Positions 1 to 37,656 of a DNA stretch of 57,342 nucleotides are shown here, piece after piece (the first letter of the stretch is position 1; each line of letters begins with the position of its first letter). The translations under genes and the position numbers were made by a program. The DNA is from a bacterium (lineage in GTDB: Bacteria; UBP4; UBA4092; JAOAEQ01): NCBI GenBank assembly GCA_026416715.1, contig JAOAEQ010000003.1, forward strand, positions 75,698 to 133,039, written 5' to 3'. Under the pieces are notes generated by a model. That model saw nothing but the letters and a program-made list of their open reading frames with translations, was not told the origin of the DNA and searched no databases.

Positions 1-170
1 GATAACGTTAAATTTAAATTAACATTATCATTTAAAATGTCAGTTTTGTCAAATTACACTCTAGGGTTTAATTGCATTTATTTTTCAATTTTGTCTAACA
101 TAGTCTGCTCCATAGCTACCGCATATCTTCGTAAAACAAGTTTGTAAATTAATATACAAGAAATAATCAT

Positions 171-199
171 TTGTTCATTGGTCAAATATTCTTTATAAT
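171..199 (+). promoter_or_regulatory. Candidate sigma-70 promoter of the first glycoside hydrolase
   Basis: TTGTTC (171-176) and a perfect TATAAT (194-199) are separated by 17 bp, about 30 nt before the coding start. The -35 half is weak. The 1-170 stretch holds no gene; an imperfect palindrome lies at its left edge (1-29). Confidence 0.5.
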
Positions 200-229
200 A
201 TTACATCAAACTAAATCAAGGGGAACTTA

Positions 230-1642
230 TTGTTTATGCGATTTATGGTAAGTTTATGCTTATTATGTATATCAATTGTATTGTGGCTCGCGCATTGTCA
301 GAAAACTAATGGTGCAGATATTTATTTCGATTCTCCGTTTGGTATCCATGGGAAAACATTCGAACTTGGTATGCCGAAAAATCCACCTCCAGGATTAAAA
401 GAAAATATCACCGCTCAATATGAGAAATTAGGGGTTAAAACTGGGTCGGACTGGAATACAAAAATTGCAGCTTTTGAAAAAGAACTCGGGATTCGCTGGG
501 ATCGAATGGGAATCGGATTTATGATGGCAGACGATATTTTCTCCCGCACGGATAATATCGTGAAAAATGCAAATAAAGTTGGTGTAAATGTTTTATTCAC
601 GGTGAGCTATCAGAATCGACCGATGCCTGGCACTGCGGAATCCGACCGTATCCAGCAATTGGTCGAACGATATGATGGCGATGGTGTAGATGATATGCCG
701 GGATTAACCAAACCGGTACTGTATTGGCAGATCGGGAATGAACCGGAAAACCGAGTTGACGCTACCGAATATTTAGAATTGCTAAAAATCGGATATACTG
801 CGGTAAAAAATGCGTCGAGTAAATGTCAGGTTCTCATTGCTGGATTGGATATCCAGATGAATTCACAGCCGAATTTCCTAGCAACGATTCTAGAATCAGG
901 TGGTGCTAATTATTTCGATATTCTCGATATCCATGCGTTTGGAAATGCGCAGGGTGATTATCGCCAGATTGAACAGAAGGTGACCGATGCGCAAAAGATA
1001 ATGAAACACTATGGAGTAAATAAACCGATTTGGATAACCGAAACTGGTACTGCGAGTGGTAGCTATAATTTTCCAATGCATCCGGAACAGCAATTATCTC
1101 AAACGGAAAAAGCACAGGCGATAGATTTAGTTCGGCGATATATTTTAAGTTTCGGGCTAGGGGTAAAAAAAGTGTTCTGGGCATGGGGCTTGATTGAGGA
1201 TTATGGTTTTATGAATAAAATAGACGGATATTTCGACCATACCGGATTAATCTATAACGGATTAGGGTTGGCTGATGAAGGGCCGTGGGTAAAAAAATTA
1301 AGTTATTATGCATATAAGAAAATGACTGAAAAACTGGAAGGAGCAGATTGGTCGAAAACCAGCAGATTAACCAATTTACCTGCCGGAGTTTATGGCGTGC
1401 AGTTTACCAAAGCGGGAAAACCAATCTATGTTGTTTGGGTAGATAATGCTTCGCAGGCATCGGTAACGTTAACTCTTCCTGGATTGACCGCTAATAAGGT
1501 AACTATCACTGAAGCTATCCCGAACTATGAAACCGGAAAAAAAGTCACGAATTATGCAACGGCATTTGTCACCACGTCAGCCTCAGTTCAAAACGGGAAA
1601 CTGAATTTAGTTTTGAAAGATAAACCTGTTTATATTGAATGA
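230..1642 (+). CDS. Secreted glycoside hydrolase, GH5/GH39-type (clan GH-A) fold
   Basis: The protein of about 470 residues begins with a hydrophobic export signal (roughly residues 5-25) and continues as a TIM-barrel glycosidase. The motif QIGNEPEN near residue 167 carries the expected acid/base Glu, and WITETGT near residue 271 the expected nucleophile Glu, as in clan GH-A enzymes. Length is normal for a single catalytic domain plus a small beta C-terminus. Substrate cannot be told. AAGGGGA at 218-224 sits 5 nt before TTG 230 and 11 nt before ATG 236, so either start is possible. It is a distant relative of the larger enzyme at 54394-56937. It stands alone, facing the minus-strand ankyrin gene. 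Confidence 0.75.
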   Translation: MFMRFMVSLCLLCISIVLWLAHCQKTNGADIYFDSPFGIHGKTFELGMPKNPPPGLKENITAQYEKLGVKTGSDWNTKIAAFEKELGIRWDRMGIGFMMADDIFSRTDNIVKNANKVGVNVLFTVSYQNRPMPGTAESDRIQQLVERYDGDGVDDMPGLTKPVLYWQIGNEPENRVDATEYLELLKIGYTAVKNASSKCQVLIAGLDIQMNSQPNFLATILESGGANYFDILDIHAFGNAQGDYRQIEQKVTDAQKIMKHYGVNKPIWITETGTASGSYNFPMHPEQQLSQTEKAQAIDLVRRYILSFGLGVKKVFWAWGLIEDYGFMNKIDGYFDHTGLIYNGLGLADEGPWVKKLSYYAYKKMTEKLEGADWSKTSRLTNLPAGVYGVQFTKAGKPIYVVWVDNASQASVTLTLPGLTANKVTITEAIPNYETGKKVTNYATAFVTTSASVQNGKLNLVLKDKPVYIE

Positions 1643-1697
1643 GAAATAACCGATTTCTCCTGAGTCACTGTTTTAATGTGATATAGAAGATTAAATT

Positions 1698-2243
1698 TTA
1701 TTCTTTTGCGCCTGATTGCTTCAGAACCTCAACTATTTCAAAATTGTTATCTTTGATTGCGCGGGTTAGGGCAGTCTCACCGAAATTATCCCGAGCATTA
1801 ATATCTGCTCCTTTACTGATTAAAAAGCGGAGTATAGCAACATGTTTATTTCGTGCAGCTACCATTAGCGCCGTTCTCCCGTCGGTAGTAGTTAGATTGA
1901 TATTAGCGCCACTGCTAAATAATGCGCGCACAATTTCAAGATGTCCTTCTCGTGCAGCAAGCATCAACGCTGACCATCCTTTCGGGTCTAGTTCATCGAG
2001 TTCAGCATGTGCTTCAATGAGTGCCCGAACAATACCGAGATGTCCTTTTTCAGCAGCGATCATTAATGCGGTATGACCGTATTTATCTTTTGCTTTCAGA
2101 TTTATTCCAGAAGTAATAAATAATTTTACTACGGTAATATCGCTATGTTCGACCCGTTTTAAAAACGTTTCTTCACTGTAGATAAGTCCGAGTCGTGAAA
2201 TCTCATTAACCGCTTCTTTTTTAGGATTTTTAAAAAATAACAT
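1698..2243 (-). CDS. Ankyrin-repeat protein, cytoplasmic
   Basis: This 181-residue protein is almost entirely ankyrin repeats: about four units of about 33 residues with the signature G-x-TALM-x-AA-x-x-GH-x-x-IVRALI and a terminal half repeat. No signal peptide or membrane segment is visible, in contrast to the ankyrin lipoprotein at 12712-13413. Ankyrin repeats bind other proteins; the partner is unknown. It is monocistronic and divergent from yggS across 188 bp. Confidence 0.8.
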   Translation of the reverse strand: MLFFKNPKKEAVNEISRLGLIYSEETFLKRVEHSDITVVKLFITSGINLKAKDKYGHTALMIAAEKGHLGIVRALIEAHAELDELDPKGWSALMLAAREGHLEIVRALFSSGANINLTTTDGRTALMVAARNKHVAILRFLISKGADINARDNFGETALTRAIKDNNFEIVEVLKQSGAKE

Positions 2244-2431
2244 AATACTCTCGTGGTAAAATTTTTCGAAATTATTATTTATTATATCCCAACTTACTTA
2301 TAGTGCCTATTAAATTTTGATACGTGATACGGTTCGTGAACTCTGAACTCACACTAATCTATATACAGTATGAAAAAATGAGGATTTCAAGGTATAATAT
2401 CTACTAATGTAGAATCCTTATTACCCATTGT

Positions 2432-3124
2432 ATGTCTCAAGTTACGGACAATTTGCTTCGTTTGAAAGAGCGAATTCATGAGATAGCATTACGGAGTCAT
2501 CGGAATCCAGAAGAAATCATTGTAGTTGCAGTAACTAAGACTGTTCCTATCGAAAAAATACTGGAAGCGATTGACGCTGGAATACATAATATCGGTGAAA
2601 ATCGAGTACAGGAAGCTCGAGAGAAGTTCAACCAAATTGGGAATAAGGTAATCTGGCACTTAGTCGGACATTTACAAACGAATAAAGTTAAACCGGCAGT
2701 TGCGATGTTCGAGTTGATTCAATCAATTGACCGTATCGAGGTCGCGAGAGAAATAGATAAACGCGCCCGCCAGATTAATAAAGTTCAGAACGTTCTCATC
2801 GAAGTTAATACCTCGGGAGAAGAGACTAAGTTTGGAATAGAACCTGATAGATTAATGCAATTGATTGAACAGATTTTGCCCTTGCCAAACATTCGAATCC
2901 AAGGGTTAATGACTATTGCTCCATTAGTGGCTGACCCAGAACGAGCGCGACCGAGCTTTATCCAGTTACGAGAGTTGGCTGAACAGATTCAACGTCAGCA
3001 TATAGCTGGTGTTGAAATGCGGTATCTTTCAATGGGGATGACGAACGATTATCCGGTAGCTATTCAAGAAGGAGCAAATATGCTTAGAATCGGAACCGCG
3101 ATATTCGGAGCGCGACTTCCGTAG
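2432..3124 (+). CDS. yggS: YggS/PROSC-family pyridoxal-phosphate-binding protein
   Basis: The 230-residue length and the motifs match the PLP homeostasis protein family (YggS, PROSC, YlmE): AVTKTVPIEKI near the N-terminus with the PLP-binding Lys, then IGENRVQEA, WHLVGHLQTNKV, the glycine-rich GLMTIAP and LSMGMTNDYPVAI. It binds PLP without known catalysis and buffers PLP and amino/keto acid pools. No Shine-Dalgarno precedes ATG 2432; a TATAAT at 2393-2398 may be the -10 box. proC follows after 23 bp, a pairing found in very many bacteria. Confidence 0.93.
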   Translation: MSQVTDNLLRLKERIHEIALRSHRNPEEIIVVAVTKTVPIEKILEAIDAGIHNIGENRVQEAREKFNQIGNKVIWHLVGHLQTNKVKPAVAMFELIQSIDRIEVAREIDKRARQINKVQNVLIEVNTSGEETKFGIEPDRLMQLIEQILPLPNIRIQGLMTIAPLVADPERARPSFIQLRELAEQIQRQHIAGVEMRYLSMGMTNDYPVAIQEGANMLRIGTAIFGARLP

Positions 3125-3147
3125 CGAGCCGGAAGGAGGGCTGTAAT

Positions 3148-3969
3148 ATGAGTAAAGAAAAACGACTAGCGTTTATTGGTGCAGGGAATATGGCTGAAGC
3201 ATTGATTCGCGGGATACTCTATTCGAAATTAGTGAAACCGTCAGCGATTATTGCCAGTGATACACTTGATACCCGAGTAGAATATATTAGTCGTCGTGTG
3301 GGAGTGAGAGCAACACGAGATAATCGAGAAGCGATTCAAGAAGCAAATATTATTTTTCTTGCAGTAAAACCGAACGTAGTTGATACCGTTTTATCAGAAA
3401 TCGGGACGCTGTTAACGAAAGAACAATTATTAATCAGTATCGCTGCTGGTATTACTATTGCTCGAATTGAGAAACAGTTAACTGGACATATTCCAGTAAT
3501 CCGGGCGATGCCGAATACTCCCGCGTTAGTTCTCGAAGGAGCGACGGCCATCTGCCCTGGGTCGTTTACGTTAAAATCCCATCTTGAACTAGCTCAGCAA
3601 TTACTCGGTGCGGTAGGGAAAGTGGTGGTCGTAGATGAAACGGTTATGGATACCGTAACTGGTTTATCTGGTAGTGGTCCAGCATATATTTTTATGGTTA
3701 TTGAAGCGTTAGCGGATGCAGGAGTTAAAGAAGGATTAGAACGAGGAACTGCTCTGTTGCTGGCAGCGCAAACGGTTTTAGGTGCAGCAAAGATGGTTCT
3801 CCAGACAGGGGAACATCCTGCGGTGTTGAAAGATAAAGTTGCATCCCCAGGCGGGACAACAATTGCCGGGATTGCTGTATTAGAATCAGCTGGATTGCGG
3901 AAATCGCTCATTCAAGCGGTATCCGCAGCTACAGCGAGGTCGAGAGAATTAAACCAAGCTAAAAAATGA
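3148..3969 (+). CDS. proC: Pyrroline-5-carboxylate reductase
   Basis: ProC performs the last step of proline synthesis, NAD(P)H-dependent reduction of 1-pyrroline-5-carboxylate. The 273-residue protein has the N-terminal dinucleotide motif FIGAGNMAEALIRG, a central RAMPNTPA and the C-terminal signatures SGSGPAYIF and ASPGGTTIAG. Length is typical. A strong AAGGAGG (3132-3138) precedes ATG 3148. It lies between yggS and asd in one plus-strand operon. Confidence 0.95.
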   Translation: MSKEKRLAFIGAGNMAEALIRGILYSKLVKPSAIIASDTLDTRVEYISRRVGVRATRDNREAIQEANIIFLAVKPNVVDTVLSEIGTLLTKEQLLISIAAGITIARIEKQLTGHIPVIRAMPNTPALVLEGATAICPGSFTLKSHLELAQQLLGAVGKVVVVDETVMDTVTGLSGSGPAYIFMVIEALADAGVKEGLERGTALLLAAQTVLGAAKMVLQTGEHPAVLKDKVASPGGTTIAGIAVLESAGLRKSLIQAVSAATARSRELNQAKK

Positions 3970-3997
3970 AAATTTAATGTTAAAGGAGAAAAAACAT

Positions 3998-5044
3998 ATG
4001 GAAATCGATAAGGTAGGTTATAAAGTTATTATTGTAGGAGCAACAGGAGCGGTTGGAATCCAGTTCCGAGAAATTTTAGAACAACGCCGATTCCCAGTAA
4101 AGGAATTGCGGCTATTAGCTTCATCGCGGTCAATCGGTAAAACTATGGTCTTTAGGGGAAAAGAAATTCCAGTAGAAGAGCTGAAACTCGAATGTTTCAA
4201 AGGAGATGAAATTGTTCTCGCATCAGCTGGTGGCGATGTGAGTAAGTGGTTTGCGCGTGATGCAGCAAAAAAAGGATGTATCACGATAGATAACACCAGC
4301 GCGTTTCGTATGGAGAAAGATGTGCCATTAGTTGTTCCGGAAGTTAATCCGCAGGACGTTACCTGGCATTCGGGGATCATTGCGAATCCGAATTGTTCAA
4401 CAATTCAGATGGTAGTTCCATTGAAGCCGATCCATGACGTTGCAAAAATTAAACGGATTGTTGTTTCAACCTATCAATCTGTATCCGGAAAAGGACTGAA
4501 GGCAATTGATGAATTAGAAAAACAGACGCGCGCGTGGGCAGAAGGGAAACCATATCCTGCGCCAGCCGTATTCCCACATCAGATTGCGTTCAATTGTTTA
4601 CCACATATCGATAGTTTTTTACCGAATGGATATACCAAAGAAGAAATGAAAATGGTTAATGAAACTAAGAAAATTATGGGTGACCAGAGTATCCAGGTTA
4701 CTGCGACTACGGTTCGTGTACCGGTTTTTTATGCACATAGCGAGTCGGTAAATATTGAGACGGAAAAGAAATTAACCGTTGCCCAAGTTAAAGAGTTATT
4801 AAAAAATGCGCCTGGCGTAATTGTAGTTGACGACCCGAGTAAAAATGAGTATCCATTAGCAATTAATGCTGCAGGAAAAGATGAAGTATTTGTTGGTCGG
4901 ATTCGGGAAGATGAATCTATTCCAAATGGTATCAATATGTGGATTGTAGCTGATAATATTCGAAAAGGCGCAGCATTAAATGCAATCCAGATTGCGGAAA
5001 TAATGCATACTATGGGGCTGCTTAAAGATAGATGGTTTGAATAA
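3998..5044 (+). CDS. asd: Aspartate-semialdehyde dehydrogenase
   Basis: Asd converts aspartyl phosphate to aspartate semialdehyde with NADPH, feeding lysine/diaminopimelate, threonine and methionine. GATGAVG near residue 14 is the nucleotide-binding loop and NPNCSTIQ carries the catalytic Cys (about residue 133). The reading frame is open from ATG 3977, but AAAGGAG at 3982-3988 is well placed for ATG 3998, giving 348 residues as in the family. It closes the yggS-proC-asd operon, which ends at the terminator 5082-5111. Confidence 0.95.
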   Translation: MEIDKVGYKVIIVGATGAVGIQFREILEQRRFPVKELRLLASSRSIGKTMVFRGKEIPVEELKLECFKGDEIVLASAGGDVSKWFARDAAKKGCITIDNTSAFRMEKDVPLVVPEVNPQDVTWHSGIIANPNCSTIQMVVPLKPIHDVAKIKRIVVSTYQSVSGKGLKAIDELEKQTRAWAEGKPYPAPAVFPHQIAFNCLPHIDSFLPNGYTKEEMKMVNETKKIMGDQSIQVTATTVRVPVFYAHSESVNIETEKKLTVAQVKELLKNAPGVIVVDDPSKNEYPLAINAAGKDEVFVGRIREDESIPNGINMWIVADNIRKGAALNAIQIAEIMHTMGLLKDRWFE

Positions 5045-21545: not shown

Positions 21546-21770
21546 TTATCTTTTTGATTCGGATGTGATTTTTAGATTATTTATTGCCCGATAAAACAGC
21601 CACATCCGGTATACCCCAGCTAGAAAAAACAATATTCCGATTAGAACACCGTACCAGGTTGGGACTTTCAACGATCGATAAATTAAAATCGGACCAAGTA
21701 TCGTTAAGATAATTCCGAATGCAATTCGGAAATAATCTAGCGTTGGAATACTAATTTTCTTAGGTGACAT
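21546..21770 (-). CDS. Small two-helix membrane protein
   Basis: Starting at ATG 21770, which overlaps the permease stop by 11 nt, the 74-residue product has two hydrophobic segments, FGIILTILGPILIY and GVLIGILFFLAGVYRMWLF. A TTG at 21782 would add four residues. No family is recognised. The overlap with the permease and the 17-bp gap to the Usp gene suggest an accessory subunit of the transporter. Confidence 0.65.
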   Translation of the reverse strand: MSPKKISIPTLDYFRIAFGIILTILGPILIYRSLKVPTWYGVLIGILFFLAGVYRMWLFYRAINNLKITSESKR

Positions 21771-23352
21771 TTTCTGATTCAATTAATGGCGCTCTTTTTC
21801 GGTCGCGTTCCGCGAGTGCATTTTTATATTGTTCTAGCAAATCGAATTCCTCTGCGGATTCGAGCACCTGTTTCTGTTGTTCTTCCCAATTACGTTTAAT
21901 GCTACCAAAAATTGGAAATCCTCGTCTTTTCCGATACCAAGCATAATAGATGAAACAGCCGAATACCCATAGTGGACCAGCAATGCGTCCGATTTCATGT
22001 GTTAGGACTACCATAACCAGAACTAAAAATACACCAAATAAACCTATCACTCCAAGAATCGGGAATTCGACCACCTGATGTTTTAATTTCAATTTCAGAT
22101 TTAATGGGACTTTATAGGGTCTTGGTGTATAAGGGTCAGAAAACCTAAGTTTTATTAGTGCAATAAAAACTAAAGTATAACCTAATGATGCACCAAATGC
22201 ATACATATTTCCTAATGTATCCAATGCATTTTTACTTAAGAACGATAATAATAATTCGATAATTCCGATACTAGAAAAAACCACAATTGTTCGAACCGGA
22301 GTTTTATATTTTGGGTGAACTTTATCAAACCATTCACTTATGCATTCCATTTTACTCATAGAATACGTTAGCCGAGAAGCCCCGACAATTCCACTGTTTG
22401 TGGAAATGAATAAAAAACATGCGCCAAGAATTGCAGTTAACGGTCCGGCAACTAATCCGATAAATGAGATATTACTCGCTAATTTTGCGACTGGATCACC
22501 GTAAGAAACTTCTGTCCATGGAAGAATACCTAAACTTAGAGTTGAAAATGCGGTTGCGAAAATAAAAACATTAAAAATAAGACTTAACGAAGTCCGAGGG
22601 ATAATTGTTGCTGGACGACGGGTTTCCTGTGCTGCCTGCGATATTGATTCTAATCCTACATAGGAAATAATCGCTAAGCTTGAACCGTACATAAAATTAT
22701 TCCAGCTTGGGAATTGAGTTTGCCAATGCCAGATTAGCATTTCCGGTTTCCACGTGAAAATGAATCCTACAACAATGATGATTCCTTCTACAACAATTCC
22801 GAAAACACCAAGAATTTCATTCAATAACGATGATTCGCGAATCCCTTTAATATTTAGCCAGATTAATATTACAATTAAGAGAAGAGCTTCTAAACACCAT
22901 ATTGGATTCAAATTGGTAAATTGACCGAAAGAAATATTTAGGTCGCGGATGGCTGGGAAAAAGAAGTTGATGTAACCTGCGGTTCCGGTAGCGAATAGGG
23001 CAATATCAATAGTATAGTCTAATAGCAAAGCACTTCCTGCCACAAATCCCCAGAAATCACCGAGACCACGTAAGGTAAAATACTGTCCACCTCCAGCAAC
23101 GGGATATGCAGACGCAAGTTCAGTATAAGCTAAACCGATAAGGATATAGACAAGTCCGGCTACGGCAAATGCGATATTAGTTGCGCCTTGTGCAGCTGCC
23201 ATAACGATACCGAGTGCAACATAAATATCTGCGCCGACATCAGCATACCCCCACATGAACGAACCCCACACGCTTACATTCCGCCGGAGTTCGGGTTGAG
23301 GAAATTGATGATTAGAACTGGTAGCAGGCGTATCGCTAGATTCACCAACCAT
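21760..23352 (-). CDS. APC-superfamily permease (amino acid or cation)
   Basis: The 530-residue protein has about twelve membrane helices and the APC signatures WGYADVGADIYVALG (helix 1), AYTELASAYPVAGGGQYF (helix 2) and SYVGLESISQAAQETRRPA. It ends in a charged cytoplasmic tail with EEFDLLEQYKNALAERDRKR. APC proteins carry amino acids, polyamines or, as in KimA, potassium. The downstream Usp and two TrkA genes make a regulated K+ or amino-acid transporter plausible, but the substrate cannot be read from sequence. No Shine-Dalgarno precedes ATG 23352. Confidence 0.85.
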   Translation of the reverse strand: MVGESSDTPATSSNHQFPQPELRRNVSVWGSFMWGYADVGADIYVALGIVMAAAQGATNIAFAVAGLVYILIGLAYTELASAYPVAGGGQYFTLRGLGDFWGFVAGSALLLDYTIDIALFATGTAGYINFFFPAIRDLNISFGQFTNLNPIWCLEALLLIVILIWLNIKGIRESSLLNEILGVFGIVVEGIIIVVGFIFTWKPEMLIWHWQTQFPSWNNFMYGSSLAIISYVGLESISQAAQETRRPATIIPRTSLSLIFNVFIFATAFSTLSLGILPWTEVSYGDPVAKLASNISFIGLVAGPLTAILGACFLFISTNSGIVGASRLTYSMSKMECISEWFDKVHPKYKTPVRTIVVFSSIGIIELLLSFLSKNALDTLGNMYAFGASLGYTLVFIALIKLRFSDPYTPRPYKVPLNLKLKLKHQVVEFPILGVIGLFGVFLVLVMVVLTHEIGRIAGPLWVFGCFIYYAWYRKRRGFPIFGSIKRNWEEQQKQVLESAEEFDLLEQYKNALAERDRKRAPLIESENVT

Positions 23353-23382: not shown

Positions 23383-23718
23383 CTAAAATCCTTTTTTTAC
23401 GAAAACGAGAATCGTTGCACAAACCAACCACACTAATAGGGATAGTAAAATACTCGGAAGTATTTTAAACCGATAGCTGCACCAATATAAGGTTGACGCA
23501 AATGCTATCCAGACCGGAATCGCCCAGAAACTCCAGATAATCGTTTCCCGCATTCGGTCGCCATTGCCGTTGCTTCCTAAAAAAAAGAATGTCGGAAGGC
23601 TAATGATTGGAAAAAATAGGAGCAATCCAGCAAGATAACTCAATTTCGTCTGGGAAAGCCATAGAATCAAACCAATAAATGCGCCGCCAATGACCGCTTT
23701 GATTAAAATTTGAGTCAT
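23383..23718 (-). CDS. glpM: GlpM-like (DUF3147) membrane protein
   Basis: The protein of about 111 residues has four membrane helices and matches GlpM: TQILIKAVIGGAFIGLI, LSYLAGLLLFFPIISLPTF, then RMRETIIWSFWAIPVW. GlpM is a small inner-membrane protein linked to alginate and membrane stress in pseudomonads; its action is unclear. The frame is open from ATG 23739, but a -10 box ends 1 bp from that codon, so ATG 23718 is preferred. Confidence 0.75.
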   Translation of the reverse strand: MTQILIKAVIGGAFIGLILWLSQTKLSYLAGLLLFFPIISLPTFFFLGSNGNGDRMRETIIWSFWAIPVWIAFASTLYWCSYRFKILPSILLSLLVWLVCATILVFVKKGF

Positions 23719-23740
23719 AAACAATATTGTAACATACATT

Positions 23741-23749: not shown

Positions 23750-24347
23750 TAATTTTAACCTTATAGATTAAATCACATCACGGTTTTATTTTAGGAACCG
23801 AATGATAATCAATCTCCTAGGAGATATATTGACCATTTTTAAATGTAATGATGTACTAAGGGTTTCCTTGAAGTTGAAGTGAAGTAGAGTTAAGGCACTA
23901 CGCAATAACCTTGATTATTTCCCATTATTCATTCTCATGAAAAATATAATAAAATAGCACTCCTATGAAAATAATAAGGTTGCAGTTACTTTTGGTATTT
24001 TAACGATTATCATGAAATAGTCCGGGGAATCTCCTCGCTATGTTTCTCGCTTTGAAAAACCACAAAACAAGACATTGAAATTGTGATTGAAGAAAAACCA
24101 AGTTTCGATTCCATGTCAGGCGCATATTTTTCGTTGACGGCAACAGTTAAGTTCGATACCCAGATTTATACCGGTAATGCATTATCAGGGTGGGAAAAAT
24201 ACAGTGCCATTTTTCCGACTGATCCTTCAAAATTTTTCATTCAAATAATCCTTTGTGGAAAATAAATCCGTAGTTACTCTATCACGGCATAGGTATCCGT
24301 CAGAAGTTAAGTTATACTTAAATATTTCAAAAAATATTAAATAATAC
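23750..24347. other. Gene-poor stretch with palindrome and an ORF fragment
   Basis: Most of this 600-bp stretch is non-coding. A perfect 14-bp palindrome ATCTCCTAGGAGAT lies at 23812-23825. On the plus strand 24056-24265 is an open frame giving IEIVIEEKPSFDSMSGAYF and more protein-like sequence, but it has no start context or Shine-Dalgarno and its upstream frame is closed; it may be the tail of a decayed gene. Confidence 0.35.
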
Positions 24348-24376
24348 TTGACAAACATCTTTTTGTGGTGTATACT
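24348..24376 (+). promoter_or_regulatory. Near-consensus promoter of the HTH-cupin operon
   Basis: Perfect TTGACA (24348-24353), 17-bp spacer and TATACT (24371-24376). Transcription should begin near 24383, leaving a leader of about 17 nt that contains GAAAGGT as ribosome site. It is one of the best promoters in the window. Confidence 0.8.
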
Positions 24377-24399
24377 ATTTGGTGAAAGGTAGAAATACA

Positions 24400-24951
24400 A
24401 TGAAACTAGTTGGAGTTAATATAAAGCGATATCGGGAAGAGCGGCAAATCACTTTACGCGATTTAGCGAGCAAATTGAACGTCAGCGCAAGTTTCTTATC
24501 ACAGGTTGAAACCGGAAAAGCATCGCCGTCATTATCAACCTTAAAGAACATTGCCGATGCGTTACACACCACGGTAGGGAGTTTAATCGGTGAAACAGAA
24601 CCTACGGCGACCCAACCAGTCGTTCGTGAGAAGGAACGCAAATCGCTCAAACAGTTAGGGAAAGGGATTAAATTATATTTATTAACTTCACCGGATCCGA
24701 ATAAACAGATGGAACCGTTATTGTTTAAACTGGATAAAGAGGCTAATTCCGGAGAAGCGTCATATCGCCATTTTGGTCAAGAGTTTGTTTTGGTTTTGAA
24801 AGGAACATTGGAAATCACACTCAATGAGAGCAAGTATATTTTGAAAAAAGGAGATAGTATTTATTTTAATTCCAGTATTCCGCATCTGTTTCGAAATGTC
24901 TCTAAAGGGACTACTGAAGCACTATGGGTGGTAACCCCACCAACTTTTTAA
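24400..24951 (+). CDS. XRE-family HTH regulator with C-terminal cupin domain
   Basis: An N-terminal XRE helix-turn-helix (residues 5-60: ITLRDLASKLNVSASFLSQ, GKASPSLSTLKNIADAL) is joined to a cupin domain (about 105-180: FGQEFVLVLKGTLEITLN, LKKGDSIYFNSSIPHLFRN). Regulators of this design sense small molecules such as amines, amino acids or phosphonates through the cupin and control adjacent catabolic genes. GAAAGGT at 24384-24390 favours ATG 24400. The three-gene M20/acetate-kinase-like cluster begins 96 bp downstream and is the likely target. Confidence 0.9.
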   Translation: MKLVGVNIKRYREERQITLRDLASKLNVSASFLSQVETGKASPSLSTLKNIADALHTTVGSLIGETEPTATQPVVREKERKSLKQLGKGIKLYLLTSPDPNKQMEPLLFKLDKEANSGEASYRHFGQEFVLVLKGTLEITLNESKYILKKGDSIYFNSSIPHLFRNVSKGTTEALWVVTPPTF

Positions 24952-24953
24952 GT

Positions 24954-25027
24954 GCAGTAAACTGCTCTATTTTTTTATACGCTATGTTAATTATTACTTA
25001 ATATAGTTAATTTATATAAAACTAACT
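24954..25027 (+). promoter_or_regulatory. Possible attenuator and operator between regulator and downstream genes
   Basis: A short stem GCAG-TAAA-CTGC (24954-24965) followed by a T7 run (24970-24976) could stop part of the transcripts. Behind it a 10-bp arm dyad (8 of 10 matching) spans 25005-25027, just before the GGGAGGT ribosome site of the next gene. Its position suits binding by the HTH-cupin protein; both roles are inferred. Confidence 0.35.
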
Positions 25028-25047
25028 AGTAATGGGAGGTAACAGGT

Positions 25048-26286
25048 ATGTATAACATTCTAAAAACCAAACTAACCGGATTACAAAATCCCATGCAGGA
25101 TTTTTCCGGTCGATTATCTGAGTTTAATCTTGATGAAAGGAACATGACTGAATTTATTACTTTGATCTCGCAAGAGATGAAAAAGTTAGACTTTGATGAA
25201 GTGGTTCAAGACCATGCCGGCAATATTATCGGTATCATTAATGGTTATGACGCTCAGGAAGATTTAATTCTGATATCCCATATGGATTTTTCTGTGTTCT
25301 CTGGATTACAATCGTTCAGGTCATACCAACCAGAACTGGATATGCTGACTTTTAAAGCCGGAATAATTTCATCGATATACGCCGGGGGATTAATGAAGCG
25401 GGTGTTAATGCCATTGAAGGGGAATCTAATCGTTTGCTGTGTTCCCCGAAGTGAAAGTTGCGGAATAGGTATCAAATATCTATTCGATAATTTCTTACGG
25501 GAACGACGCAAACATATTCAGGGAGTCATTCTTTGTGAGCCAACTGACTTTAATATCAATCTTGGTCATAAAGGAAAAATGGAGTATGAGATTGTGGTGA
25601 AAGGGAAAATTGGGAAAGATGAATTTTTCGAACAACGGGGAATAAATATGCTCGGGACTATGTTTCCGTTAATCAACGAATTAGAGAAATATTCACAAAC
25701 GTTACCTCGCGATTTTACATTAGGTCCATCGAGTTTACGGATTAAAGATGTTAGCTATAGCGGTTACGGTAGTCCGTATCAGCCATTGGAAGATTTACGA
25801 GAATGTCGGGTGGTCGTTGATCGCACCTATGTTCCGGAAGAAAGAGAGGAAACGATTTTAAATAAAGCCAAATCGATTGCGAAAAGTGTTTATCGAGAAA
25901 AACCGGAAGTAATAGTTGACACTGCGGTGGCAACGCGCAGAGTTAAAACCCTAGCTGGAACAGAAGTTATTGCTGAAAAAGAATATAAACCATGGAGAAT
26001 GGAAGAACATCATCCATTTGTTCTCTCTTCGTTAGGAGTACTGAGAGAAAACGGATTTAATGCTACACTTGGATACTGGAAAAAAATTATTACCGAAGGT
26101 TCATATACTTGTGGTGAATTACAGATACCAACTATTGGTTTTGGCGCTGGTTCGGAAGAGATGCTAACTGTCGGCAAACCTATGATATCGATCGATGATT
26201 TAGCTAAATCAGTATATGGACAAACCCTGATAATTCACCGGAATCTTGGTATGCCAACGTTTGGGTGGTGCGAAGATGAAATCTAA
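25048..26286 (+). CDS. M20 (YgeY-like) peptidase-fold protein with lost catalytic site
   Basis: The 412-residue protein follows the M20 hydrolase YgeY along its length: GNIIGIINGY, ISHMDFS, CEPTDFNINLGHKGKMEYEI and IPTIGFGAGSEE align with it. Compared with YgeY as remembered, the first metal His survives (SHMD), but the bridging Asp (TSDQEGG) is replaced in LTFKAGI, the catalytic Glu-Glu (VQEEDC) is RS in VPRSESC, the dimer-domain His is gone, and the last His (after FGPG) is missing. Hydrolysis is therefore unlikely; a binding or structural role is inferred. GGGAGGT (25034-25040) fixes ATG 25048. The next gene overlaps its end by 11 nt. Confidence 0.8.
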   Translation: MYNILKTKLTGLQNPMQDFSGRLSEFNLDERNMTEFITLISQEMKKLDFDEVVQDHAGNIIGIINGYDAQEDLILISHMDFSVFSGLQSFRSYQPELDMLTFKAGIISSIYAGGLMKRVLMPLKGNLIVCCVPRSESCGIGIKYLFDNFLRERRKHIQGVILCEPTDFNINLGHKGKMEYEIVVKGKIGKDEFFEQRGINMLGTMFPLINELEKYSQTLPRDFTLGPSSLRIKDVSYSGYGSPYQPLEDLRECRVVVDRTYVPEEREETILNKAKSIAKSVYREKPEVIVDTAVATRRVKTLAGTEVIAEKEYKPWRMEEHHPFVLSSLGVLRENGFNATLGYWKKIITEGSYTCGELQIPTIGFGAGSEEMLTVGKPMISIDDLAKSVYGQTLIIHRNLGMPTFGWCEDEI

Positions 26287-27508
26287 TGCTACTCCAATTA
26301 ACATTCTAGTACTGAACTGCGGAAGTTCATCGCTAAAATATAAAATTATTCGGATGCCGGAAGAACAGGAATTGGTTTCAGGTGAAGCGGAACGGGTTGG
26401 AATAAAAACACAAGATACCCCGATGATAACCCATTATGTTTTCGGCCAAAAACGGGTGGTTAAAACTGAAATTCCGAATCATACCGTAGCGTTCCGAAAA
26501 GCGTTATCACTGATTAAAGAAGACCATAAAACCCATAAATCGGTTACGTTCGATATCTTTGCCCATCGATATGTTCATCCGGGAACGTGGTTTTCAAAAA
26601 CAACAAAAATCACTAATGCCAGACTCGAACGGTTGCGAGAAACATTGCAATTAGCGCCGTTACATAATCCGATATCATTTGCGTTGGTCGAACTTTGCAC
26701 ACAAGAGTATCCGGAAATTCCGCAATATGTGGTGTTCGATACCGCGTTTCATTCAACGATTCCAAAGGAATTGTATAGCTATGCGTTACCCATGAAACTG
26801 GTAAAAAAATATGGGCTAAGAAAAATAGGGTTCCATGGTATCTCACATCAGTATGTAAGTAGGGAAGCTTGCCGATATCTAAATCGAGATTATAGAACTC
26901 AACGGATTATTAGTTGTCATTTAGGTACGGGTGGTTCCAGTGTATGCGCGATAGATTGTGGGAAATCAATCAACAATTCGATGGGATTTACTCCGTTAGA
27001 AGGATTAATGATGAACACCCGTTCCGGGGATTTAGATTTAGGGTTGCTCTTTTATATTATGTTTAAAGAAAATATCTCGCCTGAAGATACCGAGACAATT
27101 TTAAATAAAAAAAGTGGAGTCCTTGGCATATTTAAGAATTCATCGGATTTACGCGATGTGATTAAAAGTATTAATAACGATTATAAAGCCAAAATGGCGT
27201 TTAATATGTACGTCCGCCGGGTAAAAAAATATATATGTTACTATATACTCTTATTAAGAAAAGCAGATATTATTTTGTTTACTGATTCAATCGGAGTTGG
27301 AGTCCCGTTGATTCGAGAAGAGATTTGCCAAGGATTGGATTTCTTTGGAATCAAGTTGGATAAATTCAAAAATGCAAATTATACTAATGGAATACAAGAT
27401 ATTTCAACCTTAGATTCAGAAACCCGAATTCTGGTACTACCGACCGATGAAGAAATTATGATTGCGCGAGAGGCATATAAGGAGTTTAACCATGATAATC
27501 GTTATTGA
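26276..27508 (+). CDS. Acetate-kinase-like protein, near-complete active site
   Basis: The 410-residue ASKHA-fold protein keeps most acetate kinase motifs: LNCGSSSLKYK, AHRYVHPG with the substrate Arg, APLHNP, VFDTAFHST with the catalytic Asp, GFHGISHQYV, CHLGTGGSSV, TPLEGLMMNTRSGDLD with the transition-state Arg, SSDLRDV and a C-terminal TDEE. The nucleotide loop, normally GGIGEN, reads FTDSIGVGV instead. It may phosphorylate a different carboxylate or act with its neighbour. ATG 26276 overlaps the M20-like gene by 11 nt, and the next gene overlaps its end by 17 nt, so translation is coupled. Confidence 0.85.
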   Translation: MKSNATPINILVLNCGSSSLKYKIIRMPEEQELVSGEAERVGIKTQDTPMITHYVFGQKRVVKTEIPNHTVAFRKALSLIKEDHKTHKSVTFDIFAHRYVHPGTWFSKTTKITNARLERLRETLQLAPLHNPISFALVELCTQEYPEIPQYVVFDTAFHSTIPKELYSYALPMKLVKKYGLRKIGFHGISHQYVSREACRYLNRDYRTQRIISCHLGTGGSSVCAIDCGKSINNSMGFTPLEGLMMNTRSGDLDLGLLFYIMFKENISPEDTETILNKKSGVLGIFKNSSDLRDVIKSINNDYKAKMAFNMYVRRVKKYICYYILLLRKADIILFTDSIGVGVPLIREEICQGLDFFGIKLDKFKNANYTNGIQDISTLDSETRILVLPTDEEIMIAREAYKEFNHDNRY

Positions 27509-28571
27509 ACCGACATTACGTGAAATTACATTTTGGGGTTTTACGAAAGGTAAAACTGGTAAGACCGAAAATACTTGTTTACTTAAAAAAACAGATGAGG
27601 TTCGTGATATTATCGGTTTAAAAACAGTAATAGATACTATATTAAACCAGGAGAAACTAGAAGCGATTGCATTCCATATTTATTTCGGTGCTGACCTATT
27701 CGATCAGGCAGTTTTTGTCGACCGAACTTTTTTCGATAAATTCCGATCGTTGGTTAAATTTTTCCCTTTTTATATTCCGTTCATTGAAGATTTACTCCGG
27801 TCGGTATATGAGAAATATACTACTGTTCCGATACTAGCATTTTTCGAGACAGCATTTTTTACTGATTTGCCAGAAGAAGAGAAATATTATGCGATTCCCT
27901 ATGAGTATTTCCAGAACACTAATATCAAACGTTGGGGATACCACGGCATCTATCATAAGTTCAATGCTCAGATATCAAAATCAGACAACCGAATTATTTC
28001 AATCGTTTTTGATAAGCAGACTACCGTTTGTCCTATATACCAAAATCGACCATTAGCGATTAGTCTGGGATATACACCTTTGGAAGGGATAATGAGCCGA
28101 ACCAGTTGCGGTGATATAGATCCAGGGATAGTGTTCTACCTTATGAAACAATATAACTATTCGATATTCCAAATCGATGAAATCCTAAAAAGAGATAGCG
28201 GGTTCTATGGACTTACGGGCTACGATTTGAGTATGGAAGAGTATTTCAAATTATATGGGAAAGATGAAAAACTTAAACTCGCGTTTGATATCTACGAAAA
28301 CCAAATCTTAAAATATATCGGAGAAGGAATTTCGGTTCTCGGTGGAGTAGATATATTGGTTTTTTCTGGTGGTTTGATCAGATATGCACAATCACTCATA
28401 TTGCATCTGCTCGAAAAGATAAGATTTTTAGGGATTAATCTCAAAGAATTACCGTGGAAGAATAAAACCAACATAATGTCTATCACTTCTCCAGATTCGA
28501 AAATTGGAGTATATCTCAATTTAGAGAATCTTGCACAAATTATCTATGATGAAGCAGTAAAATTACTTTAG
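27492..28571 (+). CDS. Degenerate acetate-kinase-like protein (pseudokinase candidate)
   Basis: The 359-residue protein is clearly related to acetate kinase (RWGYHGIYHKF, LGYTPLEGIMSRTSCGDIDPG, LVFSGGLIRYA) but shorter and stripped of key residues. The N-terminal N-x-GSSS is absent (MIIVIEPTLREITF), HRVVHGG is lost, PLHNP is lost, the catalytic Asp of FDTAFH is Glu in FETAFF, the HLG motif is lost and the transition-state Arg is Ser. It keeps the GG of the nucleotide loop that its partner lacks. AAGGAG (27479-27484) drives ATG 27492, inside the preceding gene. A regulatory or heterodimeric subunit is inferred. Confidence 0.8.
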   Translation: MIIVIEPTLREITFWGFTKGKTGKTENTCLLKKTDEVRDIIGLKTVIDTILNQEKLEAIAFHIYFGADLFDQAVFVDRTFFDKFRSLVKFFPFYIPFIEDLLRSVYEKYTTVPILAFFETAFFTDLPEEEKYYAIPYEYFQNTNIKRWGYHGIYHKFNAQISKSDNRIISIVFDKQTTVCPIYQNRPLAISLGYTPLEGIMSRTSCGDIDPGIVFYLMKQYNYSIFQIDEILKRDSGFYGLTGYDLSMEEYFKLYGKDEKLKLAFDIYENQILKYIGEGISVLGGVDILVFSGGLIRYAQSLILHLLEKIRFLGINLKELPWKNKTNIMSITSPDSKIGVYLNLENLAQIIYDEAVKLL

Positions 28572-29351: not shown

Positions 29352-29948
29352 TTATTTTTTAAGCTTCTTTCCGCAGTATGGACAATAGCACCAATCAGGG
29401 TCAGTAATCTTTTTCGCGCAGGATTTGCATTTTGTTACCATACTCGCTCCGCAATACGGGCAGAATTCCGGTTTCGCATACGCGCGAAATTGCTTGGTGC
29501 ACATCGGACAAGTTTGCAGTATCGGCGTGGATATTTTTTCTTCTATTACTTTTTTCGCTTCACTAATCGCTGAAGGAACTATCTCACGCATCATTTCAGA
29601 AATATCGCTATCGCGCCAACCTTTTATCGAAATGAGATAAACATTCGCTTCTTTCTTCTGAATCGTTAACCCGGCAGCATCACAGACGGTCTGCAACGCA
29701 AGGTCTGCCGGAACATTTTTGAACGTTGCTGTTATCATTACATTCGGTACTTCCGGTGAAATAACCACGCTAAAATTTCCGGATTTCGCAATTTGCGTAA
29801 TTGCCGTAGTGATAGGAATATTAGTTAATTCTAGCGAAATTTTCATTAGCTCCTTGCTTAATTTCTCCGCCGGTTGTTCAGCATAACTAATAGAGATAAT
29901 GGAAAAAAAGAGAATTCCAATTACTAAGATAATTGGTTTTTTATCCAT
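29352..29948 (-). CDS. Exported STN (secretin/TonB N-terminal) domain protein with double zinc ribbon
   Basis: A signal peptide (about 1-23, ending SYA) is followed by an STN-type domain (about 32-110: ISLELTNIPITTAITQIAKSG, ATFKNVPADLALQTV), a helical linker and two zinc ribbons (CPMC-x13-CPYC and CKSC-x8-CYCPYC). STN domains normally sit on secretins or TonB receptors as periplasmic plugs. Here there is no secretin and the zinc ribbons are an unusual addition. It is the last gene of a sigma / anti-sigma operon. Confidence 0.78.
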   Translation of the reverse strand: MDKKPIILVIGILFFSIISISYAEQPAEKLSKELMKISLELTNIPITTAITQIAKSGNFSVVISPEVPNVMITATFKNVPADLALQTVCDAAGLTIQKKEANVYLISIKGWRDSDISEMMREIVPSAISEAKKVIEEKISTPILQTCPMCTKQFRAYAKPEFCPYCGASMVTKCKSCAKKITDPDWCYCPYCGKKLKK

Positions 29949-35247: not shown

Positions 35248-37656
35248 GTGTCGAAAAGAAAAAGCAATAAACCAAATCACATGCGCACCAAAAATAGCAA
35301 TGCTCCATTAACACCTGATGAACTTCGGAACCTTGATGCTTATTGGCGAGCAGCAAATTATCTATCCGTCGGGCAGATATATCTGTTGGATAATCCGCTG
35401 TTAAAAACTCCGCTAAAAAAAGAACATATCAAACCACGACTGTTAGGTCATTGGGGAACAACTCCCGGATTAAATTTTATTTATGTCCATTTAAATCGGG
35501 TAATTAAAAAATTCGGGTTAAATATGATTTATATCATCGGACCCGGTCATGGCGGACCCGGGTTAGTAGCGAATGCGTATCTTGAAGGGACGTATACCGA
35601 ATTCTATCCGCATATTTCGCAGGATGTTGAAGGAATGAAAAGATTATTCAAACAGTTTTCTTTTCCGGGCGGGATACCGAGTCATGTCGCTCCGGAGACG
35701 CCCGGTTCGATCCATGAAGGTGGTGAACTCGGTTATGCGCTAGCGCATGCGTATGGTGCCGCGTTCGATAATCCGGATTTAATTGTTGCCTGTATCGTTG
35801 GAGATGGCGAAGCGGAAACCGGACCATTAGCTACGAGCTGGCATTCGAACAAGTTTTTAAATCCTGTAACTGACGGTGCGGTTCTGCCGATTCTGCATCT
35901 GAACGGATATAAAATCGCTAATCCAACCGTTTTGGCTCGTTTACCGCATGACGAACTTGAAAGCTTATTCATCGGGTATGGATATAAACCCTATTTTGTT
36001 GAAGGTGATGATCCCAAACACATGCATCAGCTTATGGCAAAAACGTTAGATACCATCATCAACGAACTCCATGCTATCCAGAAAAAAGCAAGAATAACTG
36101 GCAACCGTTTTCGTCCAATCTGGCCAATGATTATCCTGCGAACACCAAAAGGATGGACTGGGCCAAAAGCGGTTGATGGTAAACAAATTGAAGGAACGTG
36201 GCGGTCGCACCAAGTTCCGTTATCAAACATAGCGTCTAATCCCAAGAATATTAAACTATTAGAAAAATGGATGAAAAGTTATCAGCCGCAAAAACTGTTT
36301 GATACCACCGGAAAGCTTCGACCAGAATTAGCAAAGTTAGCGCCGATAGGTTCTCAACGAATGAGCGCAAACCCACATGCGAACGGCGGTCTTTTGCTCA
36401 AAGATTTGAAACTACCTGATTTTAAAAATTATGCGGTTGATGTTCCATCTCCCGGAACCGTAGTTGCGGAATCGACTCGAATTATGGGTAAATTTCTCCG
36501 TGATGTTATGAAATTGAACCAGGAGACGAAAAATTTCCGGATATTCGGTCCTGACGAAACAGCATCGAACCGATTAGATTCGGTATTTGAGGTGACTAAC
36601 CGGACTTGGATGGCGCAACGGATTCCTGAAGATGATTATCTATCTCCTGATGGACGGGTTATGGAAGTATTGAGTGAACATTTATGTCAAGGATGGTTAG
36701 AAGGATATTTGCTAACCGGTCGACATGGATTTTTCTCCTGTTATGAAGCGTTCATCCATATCGTGGATTCAATGTTTAACCAGCATGCGAAATGGCTAAA
36801 AGTAACCCGGCATATTCCCTGGCGTAAACCGATTGCATCATTAAATTATCTCCTAACGTCGCATGTCTGGCGGCAAGACCATAACGGATTCTCGCATCAA
36901 GACCCCGGATTTATTGACCACGTGGTGAATAAAAAAGCGGAAATTATTCGGGTATATCTTCCACCGGATGCAAACACCTTGTTATCGGTTACTGACCACT
37001 GTTTACGAAGTCGGAATTATGTGAATGTTATCATTGCAGGGAAACAACCGGCGTTGCAATATCTGGATATGGACTCAGCGATTAAACATTGCACGGCAGG
37101 TATCAGTATCTGGGAGTGGGCGAGTAATGATAAAGGCGGAGAACCAGATGTGGTTATGGCATGTGCTGGAGATGTTCCGACATTAGAAACTCTCGCTGCG
37201 GTTGATATTTTACGGCAAAATTTCCCTGACCTAAAAATCCGGGTGATTAATGTTGTTGATTTGATGGCACTGCAGCCACCGAGCGAACATCCGCATGGAT
37301 TGTCAGATAAAGATTTCGATGCGATGTTTACAATCAATAAACCGATTATTTTTGCATTTCATGGATATCCGTGGCTTATCCATCGGTTAACCTATCGGAG
37401 AACTAACCACCCCAACCTCCATGTCCGTGGTTATAAAGAAGAAGGAACTACAACTACGCCATTTGATATGACCGTTCTGAATCAGGTTGACCGATTCCAT
37501 CTAGCGAATGATGTTATTGACCGGGTTCCGAAACTCGGTTCCGCTGCTGGATATGTTAAACAACTCATTCGCGATAAACTCATCTTGCATCGTCAATATA
37601 TTACCCAAACCGGTGATGATTTACCGGAAATTCGTAACTGGAAATGGCCATATTGA
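35248..37656 (+). CDS. xfp: Xylulose-5-phosphate/fructose-6-phosphate phosphoketolase
   Basis: Phosphoketolase is a thiamine-diphosphate enzyme that splits xylulose-5-P (and fructose-6-P) with phosphate to acetyl phosphate and an aldose phosphate. The 802 residues show the family motifs [30 protein letters not shown] and [19 protein letters not shown] (ThDP-binding), and [11 protein letters not shown]. Length is normal. It starts at GTG 35248 with AAAGGAG just upstream. Acetyl phosphate would normally go to acetate kinase or phosphotransacetylase; neither is adjacent, but two acetate-kinase-like genes lie 7 kb upstream. Confidence 0.95.

Follow-up and report, generated by a model that had tools for sequence, protein, structure and literature searches.

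Three overlapping genes in the window, that is, the whole 57,342-nt stretch of DNA analyzed here, form a rare unit that would encode a three-subunit, PPi-type short-chain acyl kinase, in which an acetate-kinase homolog (AckA1) is the catalytic subunit, a second homolog (AckA2) its pseudokinase partner, and a repurposed third protein carries a conserved C-terminal tail. We assign this reading a probability of roughly 0.5. No described unit of this kind was found in the open-access papers searched. The window belongs to a genome (G000) of 2.96 Mb in 64 contigs, 100% complete, whose phylum is represented by two genomes in the set searched, which was sampled at one genome per species.

The features of the locus are collected in table 1. 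The first-pass annotation had described a near-consensus promoter and gene overlaps of 11 nt (M20/AckA1) and 17 nt (AckA1/AckA2), all of which were confirmed, and it had joined the HTH-cupin gene and the three overlapping genes into one unit. The overlapping part of this unit stood, but a gap of 96 nt separates the HTH-cupin gene from the M20 gene, so that the trio comprises M20, AckA1, and AckA2 only and the regulator is a separate upstream gene. The loss of catalytic residues from the M20-like protein, the altered nucleotide loop of the first kinase, and the absence of most substrate residues from the second had likewise been read from the letters, and all three were borne out by the alignments described below, the altered loop being explained by a PPi-type signature known from Entamoeba. 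Sequencing error was considered as the source of this degeneracy and rejected, since all four ORFs (HTH-cupin, M20-like, AckA1, and AckA2) are intact and the changes in AckA1 and AckA2 are repeated in eight further genomes. In the surroundings of the unit, an APC-type amino acid permease is encoded divergently (21760-23352, minus strand), with a GlpM-family protein between the permease and the unit (23383-23739, minus strand). A gene at 29352-29948 (minus strand) combines, unusually, a weakly matching STN (secretin/TonB short) domain, below the cutoff, with a double zinc ribbon.

Table 1. Features of the unit in the window and FolE2-like genes of other loci (locus handles precede their coordinates).
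Feature	Position	Strand	Basis or remark
Palindrome TTAAGTTATACTTAA, putative HTH-cupin operator	24307-24321	.	Pattern search; putative function
Weaker palindrome copy over the -35 box	24337-24351	.	2 mismatches
Sigma-70-type promoter TTGACA-N17-TATACT	24348-24376	+	11/12 consensus bases
HTH-cupin transcription regulator, PuuR-like architecture	24400-24951	+	ORF; HTH_3 and Cupin_2 domain matches
Second palindrome TTAATTATTACTTAA	24987-25001	.	Pattern search; 46 nt 5' of M20 start
M20/YgeY-like protein without complete metal site	25048-26286	+	ORF, family profiles, alignment
M20 C-terminal tail MPTFGWCEDEI	26251-26283	+	GWxxD(E/D)I ending kept in all module M20 proteins
AckA1, acetate-kinase homolog, Entamoeba PPi-type clade	26276-27508	+	ORF, profile, alignment, trees
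AckA1 PHOSPHATE2 loop HLGTGG, extra Gly	26918-26935	+	Alignment; available text of PMC5517563
AckA1 ADENOSINE loop FTDSIGVG (A330D, G331S, MtACK numbering)	27278-27301	+	Alignment; available text of PMC5517563
AckA2, pseudokinase twin, acetate-kinase fold (predicted)	27492-28571	+	ORF, profile, alignment, predicted structure
FolE2-like genes	L056 7124-7918; L057 7073-7867; L089 9027-9818; L102 441-1238		C-terminus MWVPFSG plus acidic tail

The promoter precedes the HTH-cupin gene, in a region whose total of promoter-like sites is not above that of shuffled sequence. Palindromes related to TTAAGTnnTACTTAA gave nine strand-matches in the whole window versus 3.6 expected, and of three related copies at the locus, two lie by the promoter and one within the 96-nt gap, which fits regulation by the HTH-cupin protein of both its own gene and the three-gene unit. 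The palindrome upstream of the -35 box is likely the operator of this regulator, which has the HTH-cupin architecture of PuuR and reached 67 bits with the curated PuuR model (cutoff 211).

A search with AckA2 as query revealed a second tandem in a genome of another phylum (G229), in which the genes are ordered M20, AckA1, AckA2 and adjoin a divergent gene encoding a V4R/XylR-type sigma-54 activator. Among 44 genomes of this phylum, the three genes and the activator were found together in G229, G387, G412, G406, and G398, and the module M20 scored 464-927 bits in exactly these five genomes and at most 137 bits elsewhere. Sigma-54-like sites (score 9/11) were observed 5' of the M20 gene in loci L052, L053, and L054, where the background of such sites is low (0.03-0.11 per kb and strand); none was found in L039 or L055. 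Two other genomes of the same phylum (G403 and G404) combine AckA1 and AckA2 with a FolE2-like gene, and a third (G397) has, at a contig edge, the FolE2-like gene with the final part of AckA2, AckA1 being beyond the contig end; within the phylum, the FolE2-like protein is confined to these three genomes. The AckA1-AckA2-FolE2-like arrangement was also found in a third phylum (G263). When 386 genomes across the domain were scanned with an AckA1 profile, G229, G000, and G263 stood out. In the same 386 genomes, the DNA pattern of the tail occurred in the window, in G229, and at six other sites, three of which end in a stop and showed no M20 or AckA gene. In a search of named genomes, the AckA1 query returned only an ordinary acetate kinase. 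The first-pass annotation had let its proposal stand or fall with the recurrence of the gene set, and the unit withstood this check, being present in other genomes of at least two further phyla. Its distribution is rare and patchy, for which lateral spread would be a likely cause. Upstream of the unit in G229 (L039, positions 1-4700), sequence reading also suggested genes similar to those for indolepyruvate oxidoreductase subunits, a phenylacetate-CoA ligase, and ACT proteins.

AckA2 scored 174 bits against TIGR00016 (acetate/propionate kinase), below the cutoff of 293.4. In the alignment, R241 and E384 are absent from all nine AckA2 sequences and most nucleotide-loop residues are gone, the window copy having lost nearly every active-site residue. 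The predicted structure nevertheless retains the acetate-kinase fold (AF2 model, pLDDT 77.6, pTM 0.81), and its best matches were all acetate or propionate kinases with a TM of about 0.8. In the trees, all nine AckA2 sequences fell on one side of a branch supported at 100/99, with long branches involved. The open reading frames preserved in nine genomes argue against pseudogenes, and by its residues AckA2 is a pseudokinase.

The third protein was found in two unrelated forms. The window M20-like protein has the YgeY hydrolases (TIGR03526/PRK13004) as its nearest named family, with scores far below the cutoffs (143.5 bits vs. 321 and 113.8 vs. 321.5). It has lost the bridging Asp of the D-x-K-G motif, the EE pair, the last His, and the dimer-domain His, the length of the dimer-domain segment being kept, whereas the five other M20 members keep the metal (Zn) ligands and are missing the dimer-domain segment, His included. 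Different lineages have thus lost different parts of the site, and no M20 member resembles a complete ordinary hydrolase. The structure model of the M20-like protein was of low confidence (pLDDT 52). The FolE2-like form belongs to the fold family of FolE2 GTP cyclohydrolase (Pfam GCHY-1, 84 bits), scored 69 bits with the curated FolE2 model (cutoff 215), and has other residues in place of the conserved Cys and His at the positions of the CPCSK, AHNQ, and ESIHxH motifs, which hold the metal site of FolE2. What the two forms share is the C-terminal end. All six module M20 proteins terminate either with GWxxD(E/D)I itself or with one additional residue, an ending present in none of the seven ordinary YgeY-type proteins compared, which have the dimer-domain His, and few parts of the third protein are as well conserved as its terminal residues. 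The FolE2-like proteins, differing from FolE2 also in this added tail, end in VPFSGYESNEI, VPFSGYESEEV, VPFSGYEGEKI, and WVPFSGHSEEL. When 838 ORF ends were ranked with a profile of the six M20 tails, three FolE2-like tails took ranks 7-9, directly after the profile's own members, and the WVPFSGHSEEL tail took rank 14; since the FolE2-like proteins are mutually homologous, this match amounts to about one independent event, at roughly 1 in 800. The tail is consistent with a docking element of the third protein.

The incompleteness of two of the three window proteins could also be accommodated by a ligand sensor, in which a small acid or amide is bound by AckA2 and a dead M20 or FolE2-like protein, which then gate AckA1, and the acyl phosphate serves for signaling instead of as an energy intermediate. 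The dedicated regulators (HTH-cupin in the window, the sigma-54 activator in five genomes) would suit such a device, but conserved receptor or response proteins were not observed next to the unit, and all Zn ligands are kept in the five other M20 members; we consider it unlikely.

The reading of the unit as a PPi-type kinase is carried by AckA1. With residues numbered as in the Methanosarcina acetate kinase (MtACK), N7, S10-S12, R91, V93, L/I122, D148, H180, P232, R241, and E384 are kept in nine of nine AckA1 sequences and K14 in six of nine, and the acetate pocket of the window copy is intact (R91, V93, L122, P232, D148, H180, R241, and E384). The changes are concentrated in the loops, where the window protein has HLGTGG for HLGNG and FTDSIGVG for FTAGIGEN, and thus Thr at N211 and Ser at G331 instead of the ATP-loop residues of ordinary acetate kinase. 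All nine sequences replace N211 with Thr or Ser followed by an extra Gly, G239 with Ser or Asn, A330 with Asp, and G331 with Ser, Thr, or Asp; the extra Gly occurred in none of the ordinary AckA proteins compared. In the Entamoeba enzyme, the extra Gly is accompanied by Thr (211), Ser (239), Asp (330), and Gln (331), and its ACHLGTGGSS and VFTDQMG align with ACHLGTGGSS and VFTDDIG in the AckA1 of G403. In the available text of Dang and Ingram-Smith (PMC5517563), Entamoeba acetate kinase is PPi-dependent, and the extra Gly and the Asp are restricted, among the sequences examined there, to Entamoeba enzymes and four Anaerolineaceae sequences; the same text leaves PPi use by the D-type bacterial enzymes open and reports that swapping signature residues did not convert donor use. 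As judged from these alignments, the AckA1 loop changes are the Entamoeba-type PPi acetate-kinase signature and not random decay. The trees agree with this, since AckA1 and the Entamoeba enzyme form a clade with support of 100/99, the latter is nested within AckA1 whether the motif columns are included or not (100/95 without them), and AckA1 monophyly excluding Entamoeba was rejected (p-AU 0.0059). Common ancestry of AckA1 with the Entamoeba PPi-type enzyme is thus supported by the phylogeny, and AckA1 would use PPi/Pi rather than ATP/ADP. The window AckA1 was grouped with FolE2-linked AckA1 (96/86), the alternative with M20-linked AckA1 not being rejected (p = 0.40).

That AckA1 is an ordinary ATP-dependent acetate kinase with drifted loops, and its neighbors unrelated passengers, would agree with its score against TIGR00016 (386.6 bits, above the cutoff) and with its intact catalytic residues. 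This view is decidedly improbable, as the loop changes recur in nine genomes of three phyla, always with a neighboring AckA2, and the window's genome contains two more AckA homologs, one divergent and both on other contigs. Even more doubtful, in our view, is a reaction of AckA1 on the tail itself, whose C-terminal carboxylate would be phosphorylated to give a protein acyl phosphate for later transfer, as in LysW carrier-protein systems, for while carboxylates are the targets of acetate kinases and the end of the third protein is highly conserved with a similar ending on an unrelated fold, the kept pocket residues V93, L122 (Leu or Ile), and P232 suit a small acid and no transferase is conserved beside the unit. 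In the LysW/LysZ/LysK system, too, one pathway includes an M20 enzyme together with a carboxylate kinase and an acidic C-terminus that is conserved, but its kinase is of an unrelated family and the window tail is located on the M20 protein itself.

In the preferred reading of a three-subunit PPi-type acyl kinase, the intact acetate pocket and the PPi-type loops point to the reaction acetyl phosphate (or a close analog) + Pi <-> acetate + PPi, which AckA1 would most likely catalyze in preference to ATP use. AckA2 would be a non-catalytic partner, perhaps in a heterodimer, and the third protein, M20-like here and FolE2-like elsewhere, would have given up its ordinary enzyme role and hold the complex or present a ligand, docked by its conserved tail, with the unit controlled by the HTH-cupin protein. 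PPi use, complex formation, tail docking, reaction direction, and this regulation are all inferences. The genome also encodes a membrane H+-pyrophosphatase and Pta, and a phosphoketolase (XFP) gene lies at 35248-37656 (plus strand), about 6.7 kb downstream of the unit; the former is a plausible PPi sink and the latter two plausible sources of acetyl phosphate, any tie to the unit being hypothetical. A bolder version remains tentative, with the odds somewhat against it: a novel complex in which a PPi-linked acyl kinase needs a pseudokinase twin and a tailed ex-hydrolase, the tail serves as a signal for docking that is portable across unrelated folds, and the Entamoeba enzyme descends, as a lone protein, from the catalytic subunit. 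The earlier suggestion of repurposed enzymes with a new joint task holds insofar as the unit is conserved and its members appear repurposed and probably work together, but the "unknown acid" invoked for it is less likely than an acetate-sized one, given the intact pocket of AckA1. From the parallel drawn with E. coli, where a YgeY-type M20 gene neighbors carbamate kinase, only the kinship of the M20-like protein with YgeY survived; the parallel was dropped because AckA1 and AckA2 belong to a different kinase family, and a FolE2-like protein can replace M20.

Among known enzymes, the Entamoeba histolytica PPi acetate kinase (PDB 4h0o) shares with AckA1 the extended PHOSPHATE2 loop with its second Gly, Thr for N211, Asp 330, the replacement of G331, and the clade; it differs in having Gln at G331 and Ser at G239, where the window AckA1 has Ser and Asn. 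It is described as the sole PPi user among characterized acetate kinases, and its reaction runs in the direction of acetate and PPi (PMC9983610). This literature (PMC9983610 and the available text of PMC5517563) presents it as a single enzyme, whereas the window AckA1 is accompanied by AckA2 and a tailed M20 protein. The putative PPi-ACKs of Anaerolineaceae (Ornatilinea, Longilinea, Flexilinea, and Leptolinea), as given in the available text of PMC5517563, have the extended loop and Asp of AckA1, and their Asp at the G331 position is also that of FolE2-linked AckA1 (FTDD). A 2022 study described the role of the Entamoeba enzyme as undefined and its acetyl phosphate partner enzyme as unidentified, and GAPDH was then proposed (PMC9983610). 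Since a bacterial family encloses this enzyme, and the family members found here are accompanied by a pseudokinase and a tailed partner, both the origin of the Entamoeba enzyme and its natural reaction can be tested with recombinant proteins. The third protein would further be a case of an enzyme-derived protein that keeps a short C-terminal tail and not its catalytic site. Finally, the divergent AckA homolog of the window's genome (L003; G000:C40:5357-6523, minus strand) carries R91 to Lys, L122 to Ser, D148 to Glu, and N211 to Gly, and is a possible candidate for a kinase with a non-acetate substrate.
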